DNA from: Cyanobium sp. FGCU6
GTDB lineage: Bacteria; Cyanobacteriota; Cyanobacteriia; PCC-6307; Cyanobiaceae
Direction of reading: 5' to 3'
NCBI GenBank assembly: GCA_024958655.1
Contig: JANWUR010000001.1
Location: 186,001 to 250,000 of the forward strand
Length of the DNA: 64,000 bases
Below the pieces are notes generated by a model, which saw only the letters and a list, made by a program, of their open reading frames with translations, was not told the origin of the DNA and made no database searches. A program made the position numbers and the translations under genes. Positions 2,117 to 27,124 of this stretch are shown here, in pieces; within the stretch, counting starts at the first letter, position 1; every line of letters begins with the position of its first letter.

Positions 2117-3921
<1,805 letters not shown>

Positions 3922-3925
<4 letters not shown>

Positions 3926-4317
3926 GCGGAGCGCTCGAAGAGGAGGAGCAGCTGCAGGCGGATCCACGCCTGCAGCAGGCCATCGACCTCTTCAATGGCG
4001 GCGAGTGGTATGCCTGCCACGACGGCTTCGAGGAGCTCTGGCATGAAACCCAGGGTCCGATGCGGCCGGTTCTACAGGGCATCCTCCAGATCGCCGTGGC
4101 CCATCTCCACCTCGAGCGGGGCAACCTCCGGGGTGCCACCGTGCTGATGGGCGAAGGGTTGGGTCGTCTGGTCGGCTGCGGTGATGAGGTCCTCGGGCTG
4201 CTCCTCTGCCCCCTCCGTGAGGGGGTGGTGGCCCGGCTCACTGCCCTCCAGCAGGGTGGCGATCCCAGCTGGCTCCCCACTCCGCGACTGGAGAGAGTCC
4301 CCACACAACGCCGGTAG
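3922..4317 (+). CDS. DUF309 family protein
   Basis: This is a small protein of 131 residues. It carries the DUF309 signature in LFNGGEWYACHDGFEELWHE (F-N-x-G-x-[YW]-x-x-H-x-x-x-E-x-x-W), near residues 25-45, followed by a helical segment LQGILQIAVAHLHLERGN. The family is widespread in cyanobacteria and some firmicutes and has no assigned biochemical role. The TTG start overlaps the typA stop by four bases (TTGA), which favours translational coupling. The tail is poorly conserved and Pro/Arg rich. The family assignment is firm; the function is unknown. Confidence 0.8.
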
Positions 4318-4327
4318 ATTGAGCCGA

Positions 4328-4840
4328 ATGCCCCCTCGTCTGAACCGAGCCTTGACCGCCCCGGCGCGTTTGTTGGCGATGGCCCTTGCCGGTGGCCTGC
4401 CGCTTCTGGCCATCGCCGTGGCCCGGGGGTGGATGCCGGCCGCCAGCGCGGCCACGCCCCAGCCTCCCGCGGCTTCGGCTGCCCAGGCCCCGCCCGCCCC
4501 GGCCCCCACGGGCATGGTGACGATCGAGTCCGACAGCCAGCGGGCCGACAATCGCACCGGCATCGTCACGGCCACCGGCAACGTGCGCATCACCTATCCC
4601 GACCGAGGCATGGTGGCCACCTCACGCCAGGCCCAGTACTACTCCAAGGAAGGCCGGCTGGTGCTCAGCGGCGATGTGGATGTGGTCGATGCCCAGGGGC
4701 AGACGATCCGCGCCGAGCGGATGGTGTATCGCCTCGACGATGAACGACTCGTGGCTGAGCCGCCGGAGGGACGGCAGGTGTTCAGCCGCCTGCGCCTGCA
4801 GACACGCCCGGCGGCGGCACCTGCTCCGATCGTTCCATGA
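4328..4840 (+). CDS. lptA: LPS transport periplasmic protein LptA (OstA-like)
   Basis: This is predicted to be the periplasmic bridge protein that carries lipopolysaccharide from the inner-membrane Lpt ABC transporter to the outer membrane. The 170-residue product begins with a signal peptide (LAMALAGGLPLLAIAVARG) and an Ala/Pro-rich linker. An OstA-type beta-jellyroll repeat follows: VTIESDSQRADNRTGIVTA, then VVDAQGQTIRAERMVY. The start ATG at 4328 is chosen because it puts the hydrophobic segment at the N-terminus. The gene ends in a four-base ATGA overlap with lptB, the classical lptA-lptB arrangement. It shows the C-terminal OstA unit and is shorter than the proteobacterial protein. Confidence 0.85.
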   Translation: MPPRLNRALTAPARLLAMALAGGLPLLAIAVARGWMPAASAATPQPPAASAAQAPPAPAPTGMVTIESDSQRADNRTGIVTATGNVRITYPDRGMVATSRQAQYYSKEGRLVLSGDVDVVDAQGQTIRAERMVYRLDDERLVAEPPEGRQVFSRLRLQTRPAAAPAPIVP

Positions 4841-5565
4841 GCCTGGCCCTCTGGCAGGTGGCCATCACCCTCGGTGGCCGCCCCCTCGTCAGTGATGTCA
4901 GCCTCGATCTGCATCCCGGCGAAGTGGTGGGTCTGCTCGGTCCCAACGGCGCCGGCAAGACCACAACCTTCAACCTGGTCACCGGTCTCCTGCGACCCGA
5001 TCACGGCGACGTGCTGCTGGATGGCTCGTCGGTGGCTGACCAGCCCATGCCCAGGCGGGCCCGTCTCGGCATCGGCTACCTGCCCCAGGAGGCCAGCGTG
5101 TTCCGCAACCTCAGCGTGCGCGATAACCTGCGCCTGGCCCTTGAGCAAAGCGGCACCTCACCGGAACGGCGCCGCGATCGGCTCGAGGAGCTGATCGCCG
5201 ACTTTCACCTCGGTCCCTTCCAGCTCCGTAAGGGGTTCCAGCTCTCCGGCGGCGAACGGCGCCGCTGTGAGGTGGCGCGCGCTCTGGCGGTGGGCGATCA
5301 GGGGCCTCGCTATCTGCTGCTCGATGAGCCCTTCGCCGGGGTGGACCCGATGGCGGTGGCCGACCTTCAGGAACTGATCGGCGGCCTCCGGCGCCGTGGC
5401 ATGGGTGTGCTGATCACCGACCACAACGTTCGCGAGACCCTCGCCATCACCGATCGGGCCTACATCCTCACCGATGGGCGCATCCTCGCCTCCGGCTCCT
5501 CCGAGGAGATGGCCCATGATCCTTTGGTGCGTCGCCACTACCTCGGGGAGGCCTTCCAACTGTGA
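4837..5565 (+). CDS. lptB: LPS export ABC transporter ATP-binding protein LptB
   Basis: This is the cytoplasmic ATPase of the LptB2FG lipopolysaccharide extractor. The 242-residue protein has Walker A GPNGAGKTT, a Q-loop near YLPQEASVF, the signature LSGGERRRCEVARAL, Walker B LLLDEPFAGVDP and the H-loop ITDHNVRET. These are the LptB variants rather than those of amino-acid transporters. It starts within lptA and ends within the permease gene, both with four-base overlaps (ATGA and GTGA). The three Lpt genes are therefore almost certainly co-translated. Confidence 0.94.
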   Translation: MSLALWQVAITLGGRPLVSDVSLDLHPGEVVGLLGPNGAGKTTTFNLVTGLLRPDHGDVLLDGSSVADQPMPRRARLGIGYLPQEASVFRNLSVRDNLRLALEQSGTSPERRRDRLEELIADFHLGPFQLRKGFQLSGGERRRCEVARALAVGDQGPRYLLLDEPFAGVDPMAVADLQELIGGLRRRGMGVLITDHNVRETLAITDRAYILTDGRILASGSSEEMAHDPLVRRHYLGEAFQL

Positions 5566-6746
5566 CGGTGCTCCCCCTGCCCCGCTGGGCCTCCCAGGTT
5601 CGCCAGCTGCACTGGCGCCGCATCCCCCTGTTGGATCGTTGGCTGGTGCAGGAACTGGTGGGTCCCCTGCTGTTCGGCATCGCCGCCTTCACCGCCGTTT
5701 CCCTGTCGGTGGGGGTGGTGTTCGAACTGGTGCGGCGGGTTGCCGAATCCGGCCTGCCGCTGCTCTCTGCTCTGCAGGTGCTGATGCTGCGCCTGCCTGG
5801 ATTCCTGGTGCTGTCGTTTCCGATGGCCACCCTGATGGCCACCCTGCTGGCCTATAGCCGACTCTCGGGCAGCAGCGAACTCACGGCCCTGCGCAGCATC
5901 GGTGTGGGCACCCGCCGCATGGTGGTGCCTGGGCTGCTGATCGCCCTGGTGATGACCCTGCTCACTTTCGTCTTCAACGACATGATCGTGCCCCAGGCGA
6001 ATCTGGAGGCGACCAACAGCCTGGAGCGGGCTCTTGGCAAAGCGCTCACCACCGAGAAGGGCAACAACGTTCTCTATTCACGCTTCGGTCGTGCCAAGAG
6101 CTTGGAGGGCGAAACCGTGCGGCAGCTCACCCATATCTTCTATTCTCGTAAATATCTTGCCGGCGAGATGCTTGACGTCACGCTGATCGACTTCTCGCGC
6201 GTTGGTCAACGGCAGATGCTCAACGCCGAGACTGGACGCTGGAATGATCAGAAGTCGATGTGGGAGTTCCGCAACGGCCGCATCATCAACCTTGACGAGA
6301 AAACCGGTACCACCACCTCCGCCAACTTCGATCGCTACTTCTATCCCCTTTCCCGCGATCCCCTTGAGGTGGCCAAGCTCCCCACCGACCCTGGAACCAT
6401 GACGGTGGGCCAGGCCCGTCGGGCCGAGAGACTGCTCCGGGAGTCGGGAAACGCCAAGGAAGCCCGACGGATGCGGGTGCGGATCCAGGAGAAGTTCGCC
6501 TTCCCGGCGATCTGCCTTGTGTTCGGGCTGATCGGCAGCAGCCTCGGCGTCCGCCCCCACTCACGCACCAGTCGCAGCCAGGGCTTCGGCATCAGCGTGC
6601 TGCTGATCTTCGGCTACTACCTGATGTCGTTCATCTTCAGCTCTCTCGGCATCACAGGAACCCTGCCCCCCTTCCTGGCGGCCTGGTTGCCTGTGACCCT
6701 CGGCCTGGGGGGTGGCCTCTGGCTGCTGCGCCAAGCCAGTCGCTGA
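5562..6746 (+). CDS. LptF/LptG family permease (YjgP/YjgQ)
   Basis: This is the membrane subunit partner of LptB for lipopolysaccharide extraction. The 394-residue protein opens with [20 protein letters not shown], typical of the YjgP/YjgQ N-terminus. It has about three N-terminal transmembrane helices, a large periplasmic beta-jellyroll (about residues 130-290) and three C-terminal helices ([55 protein letters not shown]). Cyanobacteria usually carry one such gene next to lptB, so it probably works as a homodimer or with a remote partner. The GTG start overlaps the lptB stop. LptF versus LptG cannot be decided by eye. Confidence 0.9.
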
Positions 6747-6792
6747 GGTCAACAGGGCGGGACCGCGGCGCGGCAGACTGGCACGGCCTGCA

Positions 6793-7713
6793 ATGTCTCC
6801 GTTGAACGATCCGGTCGTCGGCCTGGGCCTGGTGGCCTTTGCCCTGCTGCTGTTGGTGTTGCCCCTCTCCTTCTGGTATCTGAGCGGGGGGCGCAGCAGC
6901 ACCGCCGTACGCCTGCTGGTGGCAGCGGCCAATCTCTGCCTCACGGCCCAGCTTCTGCTGCGCTGGTGGGATTCGGGCCATTTCCCGATCAGCAATCTCT
7001 ACGAATCGCTTTGCTTTCTCGCCTGGGGCTGCACCCTCACCCAGTTGCTGGTGGAGCGGACCTGGCCGAACCCACTCGTTCCGGCTGCCGCCACCCCCAT
7101 GGCTCTCGGTTGTGTGGCCTTCGCCAGCTTCGCCCTGCCGGAACGCCTTCAGGAGGCCTCGCCACTGGTGCCGGCCCTTCGCTCCAGCTGGCTGGTGATG
7201 CACGTCAGCGTGATCATGCTCAGCTATGCCGCCCTGCTGGTGGGCTCCCTGCTGTCTGTGGCGGTCCTGTTCACCGACCGCAACGAGGCCCTGGAACTGC
7301 GGGGCAGCTCCATCGGCAGCGGTGGTTACCGCCAGGCCCAGCTGGCCAGTGATGGTCCAGGAGCCATGGCACTCAGCAGCAGCAGCTTCAGGATCAGTGA
7401 GCAACTCGATGCCCTCAGCTACCGCACGATCACGGTGGGCTTTCTGCTTCTTTCCGTGGGGCTGGTGAGCGGTGCCGTCTGGGCCAATGAGGCCTGGGGC
7501 AGTTGGTGGAGCTGGGATCCGAAGGAAACCTGGGCCCTGATCTGCTGGCTCGTCTACGCCGCCTATCTGCACACCCGCCTCATCCGAGGCTGGCAGGGCC
7601 GCCGGCCTGCTCTGGTGGCATCCGCCGGCCTGGTGGTGATCGCGGTCTGCTACATCGGCGTCAACCTGCTGGGCATCGGATTGCACAGCTACGGCTGGTT
7701 CTTCGGCGCTTAG
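6793..7713 (+). CDS. ccsA: Cytochrome c biogenesis protein CcsA (system II)
   Basis: This is the haem-handling integral membrane subunit of the system II (Ccs) cytochrome c synthase used by cyanobacteria and chloroplasts. The diagnostic tryptophan-rich WWD motif [18 protein letters not shown] is near residues 235-252, flanked by conserved His-containing helices ([31 protein letters not shown]). The ATG at 6793 gives 306 residues, the usual length; an in-frame extension to 6712 lies in the previous gene. It follows the Lpt permease by 46 bp in the same direction. Its partner Ccs1/CcsB (ResB) is not in the window. Confidence 0.93.
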
Positions 7714-22544: not shown

Positions 22545-23240
22545 CTACCTTTCAATCAACCCCCGCTTGCGCAACGGCTCAAGCGCCGCGATCTGTAACC
22601 CCTCGGGTCCATCCACCAGCACGGACCTGGCGCGCAGCTGACTCAGCACCTTCGAGGTGGTGCCCCTGGCCAGGCCCGCGATGTTGGCGAGCTCCGTTTG
22701 GGTGATGTCGGGGATGGGGCTGAGCGGATCAGCTTCGTAGCTGGTGCATCGGGCCAGTTCTGCCAATGTGGCCAGCACCCTGGTGGTGGCATCCTCCCCG
22801 CGCAGCCGGAATCGATGACCGAGTGCCACCAGGCGCCGCGCTTCCAGTTGGGCCAGGTTGAGGGTGAAGCGGGGCCAGCGTTCGACCTCCTGTTGCACCG
22901 ACGACCAGCGAAGCTTCACCACCTCCATCGGAGTGAGCGCCACCACGTCGGCGGAGCGGAGGCCATTGCCCAGCAACATGGCCAGTTCGCCCACCATCTC
23001 TCCTACGCCCAACAGGTTCACCACCACCTCCTCACCGCCCAGGGTGATGTGGCGCACCTTGGCCACACCAGAACGGATCAGAAACACACCATCATCCCAG
23101 TCGCCCTCAAACACCAACTGGTGAGCTGCCGGCACCGTGAGGTTGCGGTGCTGGTGGAGCAGGTGCTCCAGCTGGGTGACTTCCAGTCCAGTGAACAGGG
23201 GAAAGACCTGGAGTTCCGCAGTGTCGAAGTTGCTGTCCAT
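22545..23240 (-). CDS. Crp/Fnr-family transcriptional regulator
   Basis: A 231-residue regulator with an N-terminal cyclic-nucleotide-binding-like beta-roll (residues 10-125, with HQLVFEGDWDDGVFLIRSGV and LLGVGEMVGELAML). A dimerization helix and a C-terminal Crp-type winged helix follow. The recognition segment is ITQTELANIAGLARGTTSKV (about residues 175-195). It is not NtcA, whose sequence is different; the ligand is unknown. It is divergent from the 1218-residue protein gene, with a perfect inverted repeat between them. Autoregulation and control of that neighbour is the simplest hypothesis. Confidence 0.9.
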   Translation of the reverse strand: MDSNFDTAELQVFPLFTGLEVTQLEHLLHQHRNLTVPAAHQLVFEGDWDDGVFLIRSGVAKVRHITLGGEEVVVNLLGVGEMVGELAMLLGNGLRSADVVALTPMEVVKLRWSSVQQEVERWPRFTLNLAQLEARRLVALGHRFRLRGEDATTRVLATLAELARCTSYEADPLSPIPDITQTELANIAGLARGTTSKVLSQLRARSVLVDGPEGLQIAALEPLRKRGLIER

Positions 23241-23310: not shown

Positions 23311-23352
23311 CCTGACTGCCCGTTGTCACCGACATGACAACGGGCAGTCAGG
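23311..23352. repeat. Perfect inverted repeat (18-bp arms, 6-bp spacer), candidate operator
   Basis: The left arm CCTGACTGCCCGTTGTCA (23311-23328) is exactly reverse-complemented by TGACAACGGGCAGTCAGG (23335-23352), with CCGACA between. The inner half-sites TGTCA-N6-TGACA have the same spacing as Crp-family sites (TGTGA-N6-TCACA). There is no T-run after either side, so a terminator is less likely than an operator. It lies 70 bp from the regulator start and 115 bp from the large-protein start. Confidence 0.8.
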
Positions 23353-23467
23353 GATTGGATGGCCAGGTGTCAGTGGAATTTACCCCTAACCACAACGGTC
23401 AACGGACAGTGATGGCATCGGTCGAGGGGGCCTGTCCTCTTCTGCCTCAATCACCGGAGGCTCACCC

Positions 23468-26400
23468 ATGAATTCCAATCTTCATCCATCTCCCCGTCCG
23501 TCCGAATCGCTCAGAGTCTTGCTGCTGCGGGCCTGGCCGGAACTGTCGTCCGTGGCTGTGTCCTTCGGCAGTTTCCTTGCCGGTACCGCCAGCTCTGGCC
23601 TGGATCAGGCTGCCCTGGTGTGGGCCCCCCTTGCTCTCTCCTGTGGGCTTCGTCTGAGCTGGTGTGCCGCCGAACTGCTCCATGGCGCCGGCCACGCCCT
23701 GGTGCGGGCAGTGGTTGACGGCGACGCCTCGGCGCTGCGGCTGGTGAATCTGCTGGAACATCGCTCAACGGCCGCGATGATCAGGGGGCTACTGCCGCTG
23801 GCCCCGATCGGTCTGGCCGATGAAGCAACCCTCCCCCTGCCATGGCTTGAGGTGGGATCTCCCGCCCGTTGGCGGGTACGACTCAAGGCGGTCGGCGGCC
23901 CTCTGTTCAATGCCCTGGCCATTGTGGTGCTGATGGGGCCGGTCGCCGCTGGCCTGTCCCCGGTCTTGCTGACCAGTGCGATTGTGATCAACGCGGTGAT
24001 GCTGCTGGCCTCTGGATCCGATTGGCGCGCGATGCTCAGTGGTCGCGCCAGCCGGTTCTACTGCGGAAACTTCGGTTTCATCAGTGGCCCGGCCCCATCC
24101 CCACGTGGCGAGCTCCTGCCCTCCTGTGCCATCGAGCGCCTGCGCACCATGGGCCTGCAGACCGAGATCCGCGGCGCCCAAGCGGCTGGAGCTTTGGTGC
24201 TGGTCGGGGATCGCCACGGGGATCCACGCTTCGTGGGCCACAAACTGGTCAACGCAAAGCGGGGTCAGCTCACTACCGCCCTGGAGATCAGTTTCGGTCG
24301 CCGCCGCCGCGAGGCCGTCCGGGCTGGCCACCGTCCCCTGTCCGCCGGCATGCTGGCTGCGTGCCACTACCGCTTCGGTACCAGCGGTCCGCCGGAGGTG
24401 ATCGAGACCCACTGGCATGGCTGGTGTCCCACCCAACGGCGCCTTCTCTGGAGCCGACAGGCGGGGCGCTGGATCAGTGCCTGGCGCACCGTTGAGCACC
24501 GCATCACTCACAACGGCGACTTCGAGCGCTTCAAGCTGGCAACGGCCGAACTGGATTTCACCGCAGTGGGCCGCTGGTTGGAGCGGGTGCTGCACCAGGG
24601 CCATGCGGCGGTGGGGGACTCGCCCAAGATTGCCGGCCTGATGGATCTGCTGATCACCCAGGGCGATTGGTATGCGGCGGTGAGGCTGGCGTCCCAGCAG
24701 GTGTTCCCCCACGACGGCACCGCGCCTGCTTCGTTGGAGCTGGAACGCTGGTCGGGCGCCTTTGAGGCGGGCTTCGGGGCGGTGCTGGCGGAGCAGCCCG
24801 GGACCGCCTTGGATCCCGGCGATCCCGCTGTTCAGCGGCTCGCGAAACTGATCCTGCTGCGGCTGGCGGATGACGTTCGACTGCGCCGCCACGGCCCGGA
24901 GCTTTTGCGCCGCTGGATCGACGCCAGCATCGAAGCGTTTCTGCACAACGATCCGTACCGTGCGGTGACTCAGTTCATCGAGCTGGCCCGGGGCAGCTTC
25001 GGGCTGGTGGTGGTGTCCTCCACCTGGCCGGATCGGCTGGTGCTCGCCAGCCTCGGCCAGCCGATCACCCTGGGCTTCGACCCAGCGGCGACTCTGGCGA
25101 TGTACGCCTCTGAACCGGCTGCGGTCGATGCCGTGCTGGCGGGAGTTCATGGTGCCTACCGGATCGACCTCGATCAGAACGCGGGTGAGGTGGCGGTGCT
25201 TACCTGCACCGACCTCATCCTCCATTCCCTCACGCTGGGGCGGGAGGTGCCGGAGGTGGAGCGGCTGGAGCGCCGCCACTTCTATGGACAGGATCGATCC
25301 AGTGCCCCGGCCAGAGCACCCAGCTCCTCCGGCCCTCGTGCAGCTGGCCGTCGCCCTGACCCGGTGGGCGATGACCTGCGTTCGATCCCCACGCTGCTGG
25401 CTGAGATCCGCAACGACTGGATCGATCCCGGTTCCGCCAACCGACAGAGCGCGGACCATCTGGCCCAGTTCCTTATTGCCAAGGCGGCCCACCTGGCCCA
25501 GAAGCAGGCGCTGCTCACCGGAATGGGACTGGATCCGACCCTGGCGAAATCGCGTCATGTGGACTTGCTGATCACCGGGGTGGAAAACAGCCTCTGGCTG
25601 GGGGAGCAGTTCGCCCGCGACCTGCAGAACCTGATGCCACTTCTGAACGTGCGAGCCCTCTCCGCAAACGCTGTGCTGCAGCACCTGCAGTACGACATCG
25701 AAACGCTGGGCTTCGCCCGCCAGTCGATCATGTTGGTGCTCAGCCATTCCGGCCAGACTTTCGCGAGCCGCCAGGTCGCGGAAACCGGCGACCTGCTGGT
25801 GCGCCAGGAGGTGATCCGTGAAGTGTTTGTCCTCACCGGTGAACCCACCAGCTTCCTGGGATCGCCGTTGCTGGAGGCCCTGGCCCCAGGAGAACCTTTC
25901 TGCCGCCGGCTGTTCACCTCCGGCGCCGGGCGCCGCATCGCCGAGCCGGCTACCGCCAGCGTGGCCGCCATGCACCAGACGCTCACTGAACTGTTGTTCT
26001 GTCTCTGCCGCCAGGTGCGGCAGGCCTTTCCAGACCAGCGTCCCCTGGGCCTGCGTCTCCCACCGGAAGAGTTGCTGGCCCTGGAGAACATGGAGGGTCA
26101 CCTGTTCCTTGAGGATGTGGTCAAGATCGTTGGCGCCGACCCCGGCGGGCAACGACGGCCCACCAGGCTGTCTCGGCAGCTGCGGACCAGCGGCCGGCGC
26201 TGGGCCCTGCACGTACTCGAAACCCCCTTCGCCTGGCTGATCCAGGCGCTCTACATCCTGGTGAGCGTTACGTTCTCGATGCCCCTCTTCCGCACCTTGA
26301 TCGGCATCGCGCTGCCGCTGGTCGGGGTGGGCGAGGGAGAGTTGCTGATGGATCTGCTGCTGGCTGTGAGCGTGCCCGCCGATGTGGCGCTCTATGTGTT

Positions 26401-27124
26401 CGGTCCCTGGTGCTGGACCGTGGCGTTGCGGCTGGCCCAGGGCCGTCCGCTGCTGGCCCGCACCGGCCGCCGCACCGTGGTGATCGGCGAAGCCGAGGGG
26501 GTGCACCAGCTGCTGGTGAACTATCTGAGTAAGTTATTTGGCCTCAGCTTGGGCATCACTTCCATTGACGTCCAGGGCGCCGATCCCCGCGATCACCTGC
26601 TGCACACCCAAGCCCACCGGGTTGTGCGCGGCACGTTGCTGTTCCTGGGGGTGCCCGATGGACGCTGCAGCGAGGGGCAGCGGTCGCTGGCTCAGGCGGC
26701 AATCCTGACAGGGCGTCAGGCCGATGGCATCCGCCACTTGGGTGTGGGTCCGGACATTGTCGCCGTCAGCTCCGATCCCAGGGTGCGGCAGGAGGCGTTC
26801 GGCGAGGCACTGCTTCTGCCCAGCCAAGCCCATGCCGGTTGCGAGGATGGTGCCAATCCTCATTTCGGGGATGGGATCGAAACGCTGCGGGAATCCCGTT
26901 TCGGATCGTTTCGCCGCCTGCTGGCCGCCTACGTGTTTTTCTGGGCCATGGCCCGCCGCGTATCCTCGCTGCCGCTGATCGGCTTCGACTGCTGGAAGAC
27001 CCAGAGCCGCACCAAAGTGATGACCACCGCCGCTCCTGTCTCGGCGGCCCGGCTCGACCGCACCGAGATGGAGGAGATCCGGGATCTGGCCCTTGATGCC
27101 CTTTCCAACCGGGAGCAGAGCTGA
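23468..27124 (+). CDS. Multidomain membrane protein: M50-like membrane domain, class II glutamine amidotransferase-like domain, SIS domain
   Basis: The product has 1218 residues. Residues 1-190 form a membrane domain with site-2-protease features: ELLHGAGHALVRA at 69-81, where HxxxH lacks the usual catalytic Glu, and VGGPLFNALAIVV at 142-154, like the M50 GPxxN motif. At 198-205 YCGNFGFI resembles the N-terminal Cys-Gly of GlmS-type glutaminases. YRFGTSG (301-307) and THNGDFE (347-353) match the Arg/Thr and Asn-Gly motifs of that fold. A SIS sugar-isomerase domain spans about 695-880, with LVLSHSGQTFASRQ. Helices at about 920-990 and a soluble tail follow. Amino-sugar chemistry at the membrane is an inference. 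It is divergent from a Crp-type gene. Confidence 0.85.
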   Translation: MNSNLHPSPRPSESLRVLLLRAWPELSSVAVSFGSFLAGTASSGLDQAALVWAPLALSCGLRLSWCAAELLHGAGHALVRAVVDGDASALRLVNLLEHRSTAAMIRGLLPLAPIGLADEATLPLPWLEVGSPARWRVRLKAVGGPLFNALAIVVLMGPVAAGLSPVLLTSAIVINAVMLLASGSDWRAMLSGRASRFYCGNFGFISGPAPSPRGELLPSCAIERLRTMGLQTEIRGAQAAGALVLVGDRHGDPRFVGHKLVNAKRGQLTTALEISFGRRRREAVRAGHRPLSAGMLAACHYRFGTSGPPEVIETHWHGWCPTQRRLLWSRQAGRWISAWRTVEHRITHNGDFERFKLATAELDFTAVGRWLERVLHQGHAAVGDSPKIAGLMDLLITQGDWYAAVRLASQQVFPHDGTAPASLELERWSGAFEAGFGAVLAEQPGTALDPGDPAVQRLAKLILLRLADDVRLRRHGPELLRRWIDASIEAFLHNDPYRAVTQFIELARGSFGLVVVSSTWPDRLVLASLGQPITLGFDPAATLAMYASEPAAVDAVLAGVHGAYRIDLDQNAGEVAVLTCTDLILHSLTLGREVPEVERLERRHFYGQDRSSAPARAPSSSGPRAAGRRPDPVGDDLRSIPTLLAEIRNDWIDPGSANRQSADHLAQFLIAKAAHLAQKQALLTGMGLDPTLAKSRHVDLLITGVENSLWLGEQFARDLQNLMPLLNVRALSANAVLQHLQYDIETLGFARQSIMLVLSHSGQTFASRQVAETGDLLVRQEVIREVFVLTGEPTSFLGSPLLEALAPGEPFCRRLFTSGAGRRIAEPATASVAAMHQTLTELLFCLCRQVRQAFPDQRPLGLRLPPEELLALENMEGHLFLEDVVKIVGADPGGQRRPTRLSRQLRTSGRRWALHVLETPFAWLIQALYILVSVTFSMPLFRTLIGIALPLVGVGEGELLMDLLLAVSVPADVALYVFGPWCWTVALRLAQGRPLLARTGRRTVVIGEAEGVHQLLVNYLSKLFGLSLGITSIDVQGADPRDHLLHTQAHRVVRGTLLFLGVPDGRCSEGQRSLAQAAILTGRQADGIRHLGVGPDIVAVSSDPRVRQEAFGEALLLPSQAHAGCEDGANPHFGDGIETLRESRFGSFRRLLAAYVFFWAMARRVSSLPLIGFDCWKTQSRTKVMTTAAPVSAARLDRTEMEEIRDLALDALSNREQS

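Follow-up and report, generated by a model that had tools for sequence, protein, structure and literature searches.

We analysed a window of 64,000 nt of Cyanobium sp. FGCU6 (contig JANWUR010000001.1, positions 186,001-250,000, forward strand), in which the gene P0001 encodes a GlmS-like membrane protein next to a divergent Crp-like regulator. A first-pass annotation, made from the sequence alone, had described the product as a 1218-residue fusion of an M50-like membrane domain, a GlmS-like glutaminase with an internal Cys, and an SIS domain. The frame of 1218 codons was found at that place and runs from ATG to stop, with a GGAGG at 23456-23460 shortly 5' of the ATG. Its motifs also sit where they had been placed (HGAGH 72-76, GGPLFN 143-148, YCGNFGFI 198-205, YRFGTSG 301-307, HNGD 348-351), except that LSHSGQT is present at residues 758-764 and not at 759-764. 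The C-terminal hydrophobic helices, expected at about 920-990, are located by hydropathy at about 916-977. All features are given in Table 1.

Table 1. Features of the P0001 locus (window coordinates; residue numbers refer to P0001)
Feature	Coordinates	Strand	Basis
P0001, GlmS-like membrane protein gene	23468..27124	+	ATG-to-stop open frame, conserved full-length homologues
Probable M50/site-2-protease-like membrane domain, residues 15-190	23510..24037	+	model, VIA, motif order
HGAGH 72-76, at the HExxH position, with Gly in place of Glu	23681..23695	+	H72, G73, G75, H76 in 16/16 long forms
GGPLFN 143-148, similar to G-P-x-x-N of site-2 proteases	23894..23911	+	GGxxxN in 14/16 long forms, 71 residues past first His
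Asp185, candidate third metal ligand	24020..24022	+	16/16 long forms
Cys199, class II nucleophile position, expected cut 198/199	24062..24064	+	20/20 members; residue 2 in 4/4 short forms
Class II glutaminase-like (N-terminal nucleophile, Ntn) domain, residues 199-615	24062..25312	+	hhalign to GlmS, Foldseek
Arg302, paired with Arg of GlmS TRWATHG	24371..24373	+	12/16 long, 4/4 short forms; weak local alignment
HNGD 348-351, presumed Asn-Gly of class II glutaminases	24509..24520	+	Asn349 in 12/16 long, 4/4 short forms
First SIS domain (SIS1), residues 640-912	25385..26203	+	VIA fold match, hhalign
LSHSGQT 758-764, SIS phospho-sugar loop motif	25739..25759	+	S761-G762 in 20/20, T764 in 16/20 members
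Membrane helix pair, residues about 916-977, between SIS1 and C-terminal domain	26213..26398	+	hydropathy
C-terminal domain, residues 995-1195	26450..27052	+	dN/dS 0.07-0.35
Divergent Crp-like regulator (cNMP-binding and HTH_Crp_2)	22545..23240	-	Pfam E 2.7e-16 and 1.3e-8
Dyad TTGTCACCGACATGACAA, likely operator	23323..23340	+	within 227-base divergent intergenic region

Eleven homologues (alignment A1) are 44-86% identical to P0001 over the full length. The ratio of nonsynonymous to synonymous substitution rates (dN/dS), computed for seven pairs, is 0.13-0.29 for the glutaminase part, 0.10-0.41 for SIS1, 0.15-0.40 for the membrane helix pair and 0.07-0.35 for the C-terminal part; the six pairs that possess the M50-like part show values of 0.36-0.54 there. 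Given these homologues and a dN/dS below 1 in every part measured, the frame is not a chance one, i.e., selection against change acts on all measured parts of the family. Family counts below are based on 16 long and 4 short forms; one copy cut by its contig end (L006) and two broken ones (L056, L057) are excluded. The whole protein has no match above any cut-off in Pfam, NCBIfam or PADLOC; below threshold, residues 494-553 are hit by two NCBIfam GlmS models (E 0.028 and 0.13).

Glutaminase and SIS parts

With regard to residues 199-615, profile and model comparisons indicate a class II glutaminase-like, GlmS-homologous domain. Comparing these residues by hhalign with a cyanobacterial GlmS profile gives a probability of 95 (E 3.3e-8), the aligned part being the 90 C-terminal columns of the domain, and with the longer profile 199-1195 the alignment extends over SIS1 (93.5%, E 2.2e-7). 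A second, weak local alignment places Cys199 on Cys1 of GlmS; in it, Arg235 faces the Arg of RGYDSAG, and Arg302 that of TRWATHG. The homology to GlmS is also reflected in the fold searches with a whole-chain AlphaFold model, which is poor (mean pLDDT 43, pTM 0.30, eight sequences) and barely probes residues 1-305 and the C-terminus. Foldseek ranks E. coli GlmS (1jxa) first (E 5.2e-6; TM-score 0.12 by query, 0.21 by target), while VIA lays model residues 292-798 (protein 306-812) on GlmS 21-414 (Z 7.5, 8.1 Å) and finds 1xff with Z 8.1 at 4.2 Å over 164 residues (model 292-594, i.e., protein 306-608). The similarity to class II amidotransferases that had been proposed for checking by fold search thus appears from residue 306 onward, and the proposed order of a GlmS-like glutaminase with an internal Cys followed by an SIS domain is borne out by hhalign, Foldseek and VIA.

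The Arg and the Asn-Gly of class II glutaminases serve glutamine binding, and HNGD is what we take to be the HNG motif of GlmS. Cys199, Arg235 and His315 are retained in all 20 members and Arg302, Asn349 and Asp384 in 16, the four exceptions (L049-L052) forming one clade; hence 12 of the 16 long forms keep Cys199, Arg235, Arg302, Asn349 and Asp384 together. The annotation had named loss of Cys199, Arg302 and Asn349 among homologues as evidence against its reading. The cysteine is kept throughout, whereas the other two are lost in 4/20 members. Likewise, its alternative of a catalytically dead glutaminase is probably right for the L049-L052 clade, but the other members keep the residues. The sensing of amino sugars that it linked to a dead domain is hypothetical. 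Judged by these losses, the clade may act by binding only.

SIS domains bind phospho-sugars. Within SIS1, LSHSGQT is aligned by hhalign with TQSGET of GlmS, and VIA matches model residues 682-799 (protein 696-813, a low-confidence model) to sugar-phosphate isomerases, the best being 3c3j (Z 9.7, 3.0 Å, 102 residues). SIS1 alone scores 0.9% against GlmS; with GlmS relatives that consist of SIS only the value is 31.6%, and with a pooled SIS set, whose alignment includes one doubtful frame (L117), it is 41%. The best PF01380 score, 13.8 bits in homologue L061, lies under the gathering score of 25, and P0001 itself has no SIS match at E up to 1. For the C-terminal domain, in a region where the model is unreliable, no profile match was found and hhalign against GlmS gives 0.1%; our guess is a second SIS domain.

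Internal cysteine, short relatives and distribution

Class II amidotransferases require Cys as the very first residue. In all 16 long forms the codon preceding the family cysteine encodes Tyr, His or Asn, none of which is a start codon, and an N-terminal Cys in these proteins would thus need a cut at 198/199. The family also has four natural short forms that lack the membrane domain, i.e., L060 and L061 (both genome G449), L062 (G448) and L063 (G462). All four begin Met-Cys-Gly-Asn-Phe-Gly, with the Cys as residue 2, which by sequence is the class II amidotransferase layout. For L060, L062 and L063 just two codons lie between the upstream stop and that Met; for L061 there are 29 codons without another ATG (rarer start codons are possible). 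A maximum-likelihood tree of residues 199-1195 implies at least two changes between long and short forms, with L061 apart from the other three; since the tree is midpoint-rooted, the direction of change is not proven. These Met-Cys proteins lend weight to the proposal that Cys199 becomes N-terminal.

The family is a conserved, patchily distributed cyanobacterial protein. A scan of contigs gave 24 pattern matches, which reduced to seven relatives, all cyanobacterial. By whole-genome search, 9 of 42 genomes in the same genus carry a family gene. In another cyanobacterial order, which includes the short forms, 10 of 42 genomes matched and five carry the family (G320, G448, G449, G462, G468), G320 as broken pieces only; the remaining five (L025, L043-L046) are GlmS frames starting MCGIVG. 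A sample spread over the phylum gave matches in 13 of 386 genomes, of which only G000, G023 and G320 have the family. The ten others are weak cross-matches; nine sit in frames that, like GlmS, start with MCGIVG, and the tenth (L022) is not shown to lie in a GlmS frame. No relative of P0001 was found by a pattern scan of viral contigs or by tblastn against plasmids. A normal GlmS above the cut-off is present in 13/14 carrier genomes, including G320, the sole carrier without one being G431, whose genome is 90% complete. This separate GlmS argues against a housekeeping role for the family.

Two broken copies were seen along the way. L056 (G002:C24, 8078-10952) is a second family copy in a genome that also has an intact one (L007/L058). 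L057 (G320:C85, 8135-10140) contains a frame that starts like a Tll0287 sensor kinase and continues as the family protein, an arrangement that looks as if a deletion took out the intervening genes.

Neighbouring signalling genes and a shared dyad

The Crp-like gene divergently adjoins the family gene at eight of the 16 long-form loci, namely in six genomes of the genus and in L001 and L002. The dyad pattern TGTCA-N6-TGACA is found in 8/8 loci having this neighbour and in none of 100 shuffles of the window. It occurs once in the whole genome G000 (4.07 Mb), as does a reversed control pattern, and across the 42 genomes of the genus there are 0 to 5 sites each, with at least one in 25 genomes. 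It is thus the place and the recurrence of the dyad that are informative, and not rarity alone; the site at 23323-23340 is likely an operator. Crp proteins of at least 67% identity occur in 6/42 genomes (E up to 1e-30), in all six adjoining the family gene, while the carriers G010, G426 and G431 have only relatives of 47-49% identity on other contigs. The neighbours of the paralogous Crp genes, listed without Pfam, gave no clue.

Some further observations concern the regulator and its site. In the window (23321-23340 and flanks), the dyad lies within a longer inverted repeat CTGACTGCCCGTTGTCA ... TGACAACGGGCAGTCAG, whose longer arms were not seen in L001 and L007. The L049-L052 loci, i.e., the clade with lost glutaminase residues, have a second TGTCA-N6-TGACA dyad shortly 3' of the gene's stop. 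In L049 an adenylate/guanylate cyclase-AAA-TPR protein (4103-7177, minus strand) adjoins the Crp-like gene and is a possible source of its ligand; frames similar to it in other loci were recognised by blastp only. Finally, L119 (G421:C36) and L120 (G010:C112) carry the dyad about 75-125 bases 5' of more distantly related Crp-like genes, 42% and 48% identical, neither of which has a family gene as neighbour; this fits autoregulation.

In the other order the neighbours are different. The family gene of L059, L060, L062 and L063 stands beside three signalling proteins, i.e., a histidine kinase with a Tll0287 sensor and receivers, a HisKA-receiver-ParA protein and one combining HisKA with several receivers (domains by Pfam for L063 and L059, by similarity for L060 and L062); in L064 a single receiver-PAS protein of this kind lies immediately upstream, at the contig end. 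The Tll0287 domains of L059, L060, L062 and L063 contain CxxCH. According to a preprint (PMC12889525), Tll0287-type domains carry heme c and, in fusions with signalling modules, show NO-sensor properties. Inside the cluster of L059 lies a sulfate-permease-like SulP-STAS-cNMP-binding protein (3521-5749, minus strand).

Mode of action and the membrane domain

The reading we favour, with about even confidence, is that P0001 is a signalling-linked, membrane-tethered GlmS relative, made as a precursor that matures by exposure of Cys199. The site-2-protease-like N-terminal domain would hold the glutaminase at the membrane and block Cys199. A cut at 198/199, most likely by autocatalysis in the manner of other Ntn enzymes, would turn Cys199 into the N-terminal nucleophile, a stage which the short relatives would bypass. 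Hydrolysis of glutamine would follow, with ammonia or a binding signal handed to the SIS part, which would hold a phospho-sugar and be anchored by the second membrane helix pair. Production would be governed by the neighbouring Crp-like regulator in this genus and, in the other order, coupled to the heme-sensor kinase cluster. If true, a class II amidotransferase would be silenced by an intramembrane-protease-like domain and serve bacterial signalling instead of the housekeeping synthesis of sugars. With long and short forms both occurring in nature, N-terminal Cys maturation is directly testable.

Known systems resemble parts of this scheme. In class II amidotransferases (MEROPS C44) with short propeptides, residues precede the nucleophilic Cys and would need removal as well; as described in PMC9140057, a few residues before the Cys are lost by autocatalysis, whereas the long forms have 198 residues with membrane helices before a predicted cleavage site. 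Literature searches for a membrane-bound GlmS-like protein or an M50-amidotransferase fusion found nothing relevant.

Several results weigh against the maturing precursor. The 198 residues go far beyond the few of the C44 propeptides in that source. The local alignment of Cys199 with GlmS Cys1 scores 3.1% (E 0.014) and an unrelated control pair, i.e., the glutaminase part against site-2 proteases in hhalign, reaches 5.4%, such that the alignment supports by position and not by score. The GlmS fold match begins at protein residue 306, outside of which lies the Cys region 199-305. The placement of L061 in the tree is flagged as unsure (long branch), and the fold of the C-terminal domain is unassigned. 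The examined flanks of L003, L004, L005, L053 and L054 show neither a Crp neighbour nor the kinase cluster. Furthermore, the L049-L052 clade still has a dN/dS below 1 despite its lost Arg302, Asn349 and Asp384, i.e., loss of the normal glutaminase residues does not preclude retention of the domain.

The last point also counts in favour of the strongest competing explanation, namely that the long forms are never cut and the glutaminase is dead or binds only, the protein being a membrane sensor which reports glutamine, glutamate or amino-sugar phosphate to signalling partners. We consider this possible, though less probable than maturation. The intact frames of those four genomes, the signalling genes as neighbours and the separate GlmS in nearly all carriers are in its favour, but it would not account for the 12/16 long forms that keep all five glutaminase residues, nor for the Cys standing exactly at residue 2 in every short form.

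With regard to the membrane domain, a site-2 pseudoprotease is probable. For a model of residues 15-210 alone (mean pLDDT 69), the top row in VIA is the Methanocaldococcus site-2 protease mjS2P (3b4r; Z 6.3, 5.2 Å, 124 residues), which Foldseek lists second with E 3.4 and a probability of 0.33, the highest in the list; according to the tool's note, fold-search values of this size may be due to chance. The succession H-x3-H, GG-x3-N, N, D is present in 14/16 long forms, and 20,000 shuffles of the P0001 N-terminus gave no instance of it, the pattern having been picked after the sequences were seen; the GG and both Asn are missing from L054 and L055. The candidate counterparts of the two His and one Asp that bind the metal in M50 proteases, H72, H76 and D185, are kept in 16/16 long forms. 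Searching the PDB by sequence returned three sequences at E <=10. Two of them are annotated as 'Putative zinc metalloprotease aq_1964' (E 1.2, hmmsearch) and aligned over GGPLFN; we take aq_1964 to be a site-2 protease. The annotation's further point, that the catalytic Glu of HExxH is replaced by Gly, is confirmed in every long form, and HGxGH speaks against M50 protease activity; because of this replacement we take the domain as catalytically dead.

The M50 identity itself is plausible but weak, and here the call of the annotation stands only in part: the motif order and the leading VIA row agree with it, but hhalign against three groups of cyanobacterial site-2 proteases remains at background (0.6-3.2%). 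No Pfam M50 model matched any of the seven members of alignment A4 at E up to 10 with the HMMER filters on. In a search for a stand-alone M50-like domain in the 42 genomes of the short forms' order, only two long forms matched. An alternative is that the N-terminal domain is an unrelated helical anchor and HGxGH a coincidence or a different metal or heme site. The hhalign and Pfam results, the modest Z and Foldseek values and the best PDB sequence, a methane monooxygenase subunit (E 0.5), fit such an anchor, against which stand the two aq_1964 alignments, the top rank of mjS2P and the ordered motif, albeit chosen post hoc; we regard it as unlikely.

Compared to site-2 proteases (M50) and EGY3, a plant protein called a site-2 pseudoprotease in PMC9355673, P0001 has the His pair, the G-rich segment and the Asp in equal order and is expected to be likewise inactive. 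It differs from site-2 proteases in HGxGH instead of HExxH and in its fusion to glutaminase-SIS, and the kinship is putative.

Compared to GlmS/GFAT (TIGR01135), the family shares the glutaminase-then-SIS order, the Cys and Arg positions and, in 16/20 members, the S-G-x-T loop, but differs by its N-terminal membrane helices, those before the C-terminal domain and the internal Cys of the long forms. That P0001 is simply an ordinary second glucosamine-6-phosphate synthase, incidentally membrane bound, is improbable, as the colinearity of glutaminase and SIS1 with GlmS is outweighed by a TIGR01135 score of 10.7 bits, far under the cut-off of 418.05, by the normal GlmS of the carriers and by a C-terminal domain unlike that of GlmS.

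Coming back to the maturing precursor, a more specific and rather speculative version is that the dead site-2 protease is a membrane propeptide latching an Ntn amidotransferase. Self-cleavage would release the latter, either upon a signal from the heme-sensor kinases or at a level that the Crp-like regulator determines. P0001 would then be a membrane zymogen acting in amino-sugar or ammonia signalling. Cys199 sits 14 residues past Asp185, the last of the metal-ligand candidates, and in such a latch may even cap the candidate metal.

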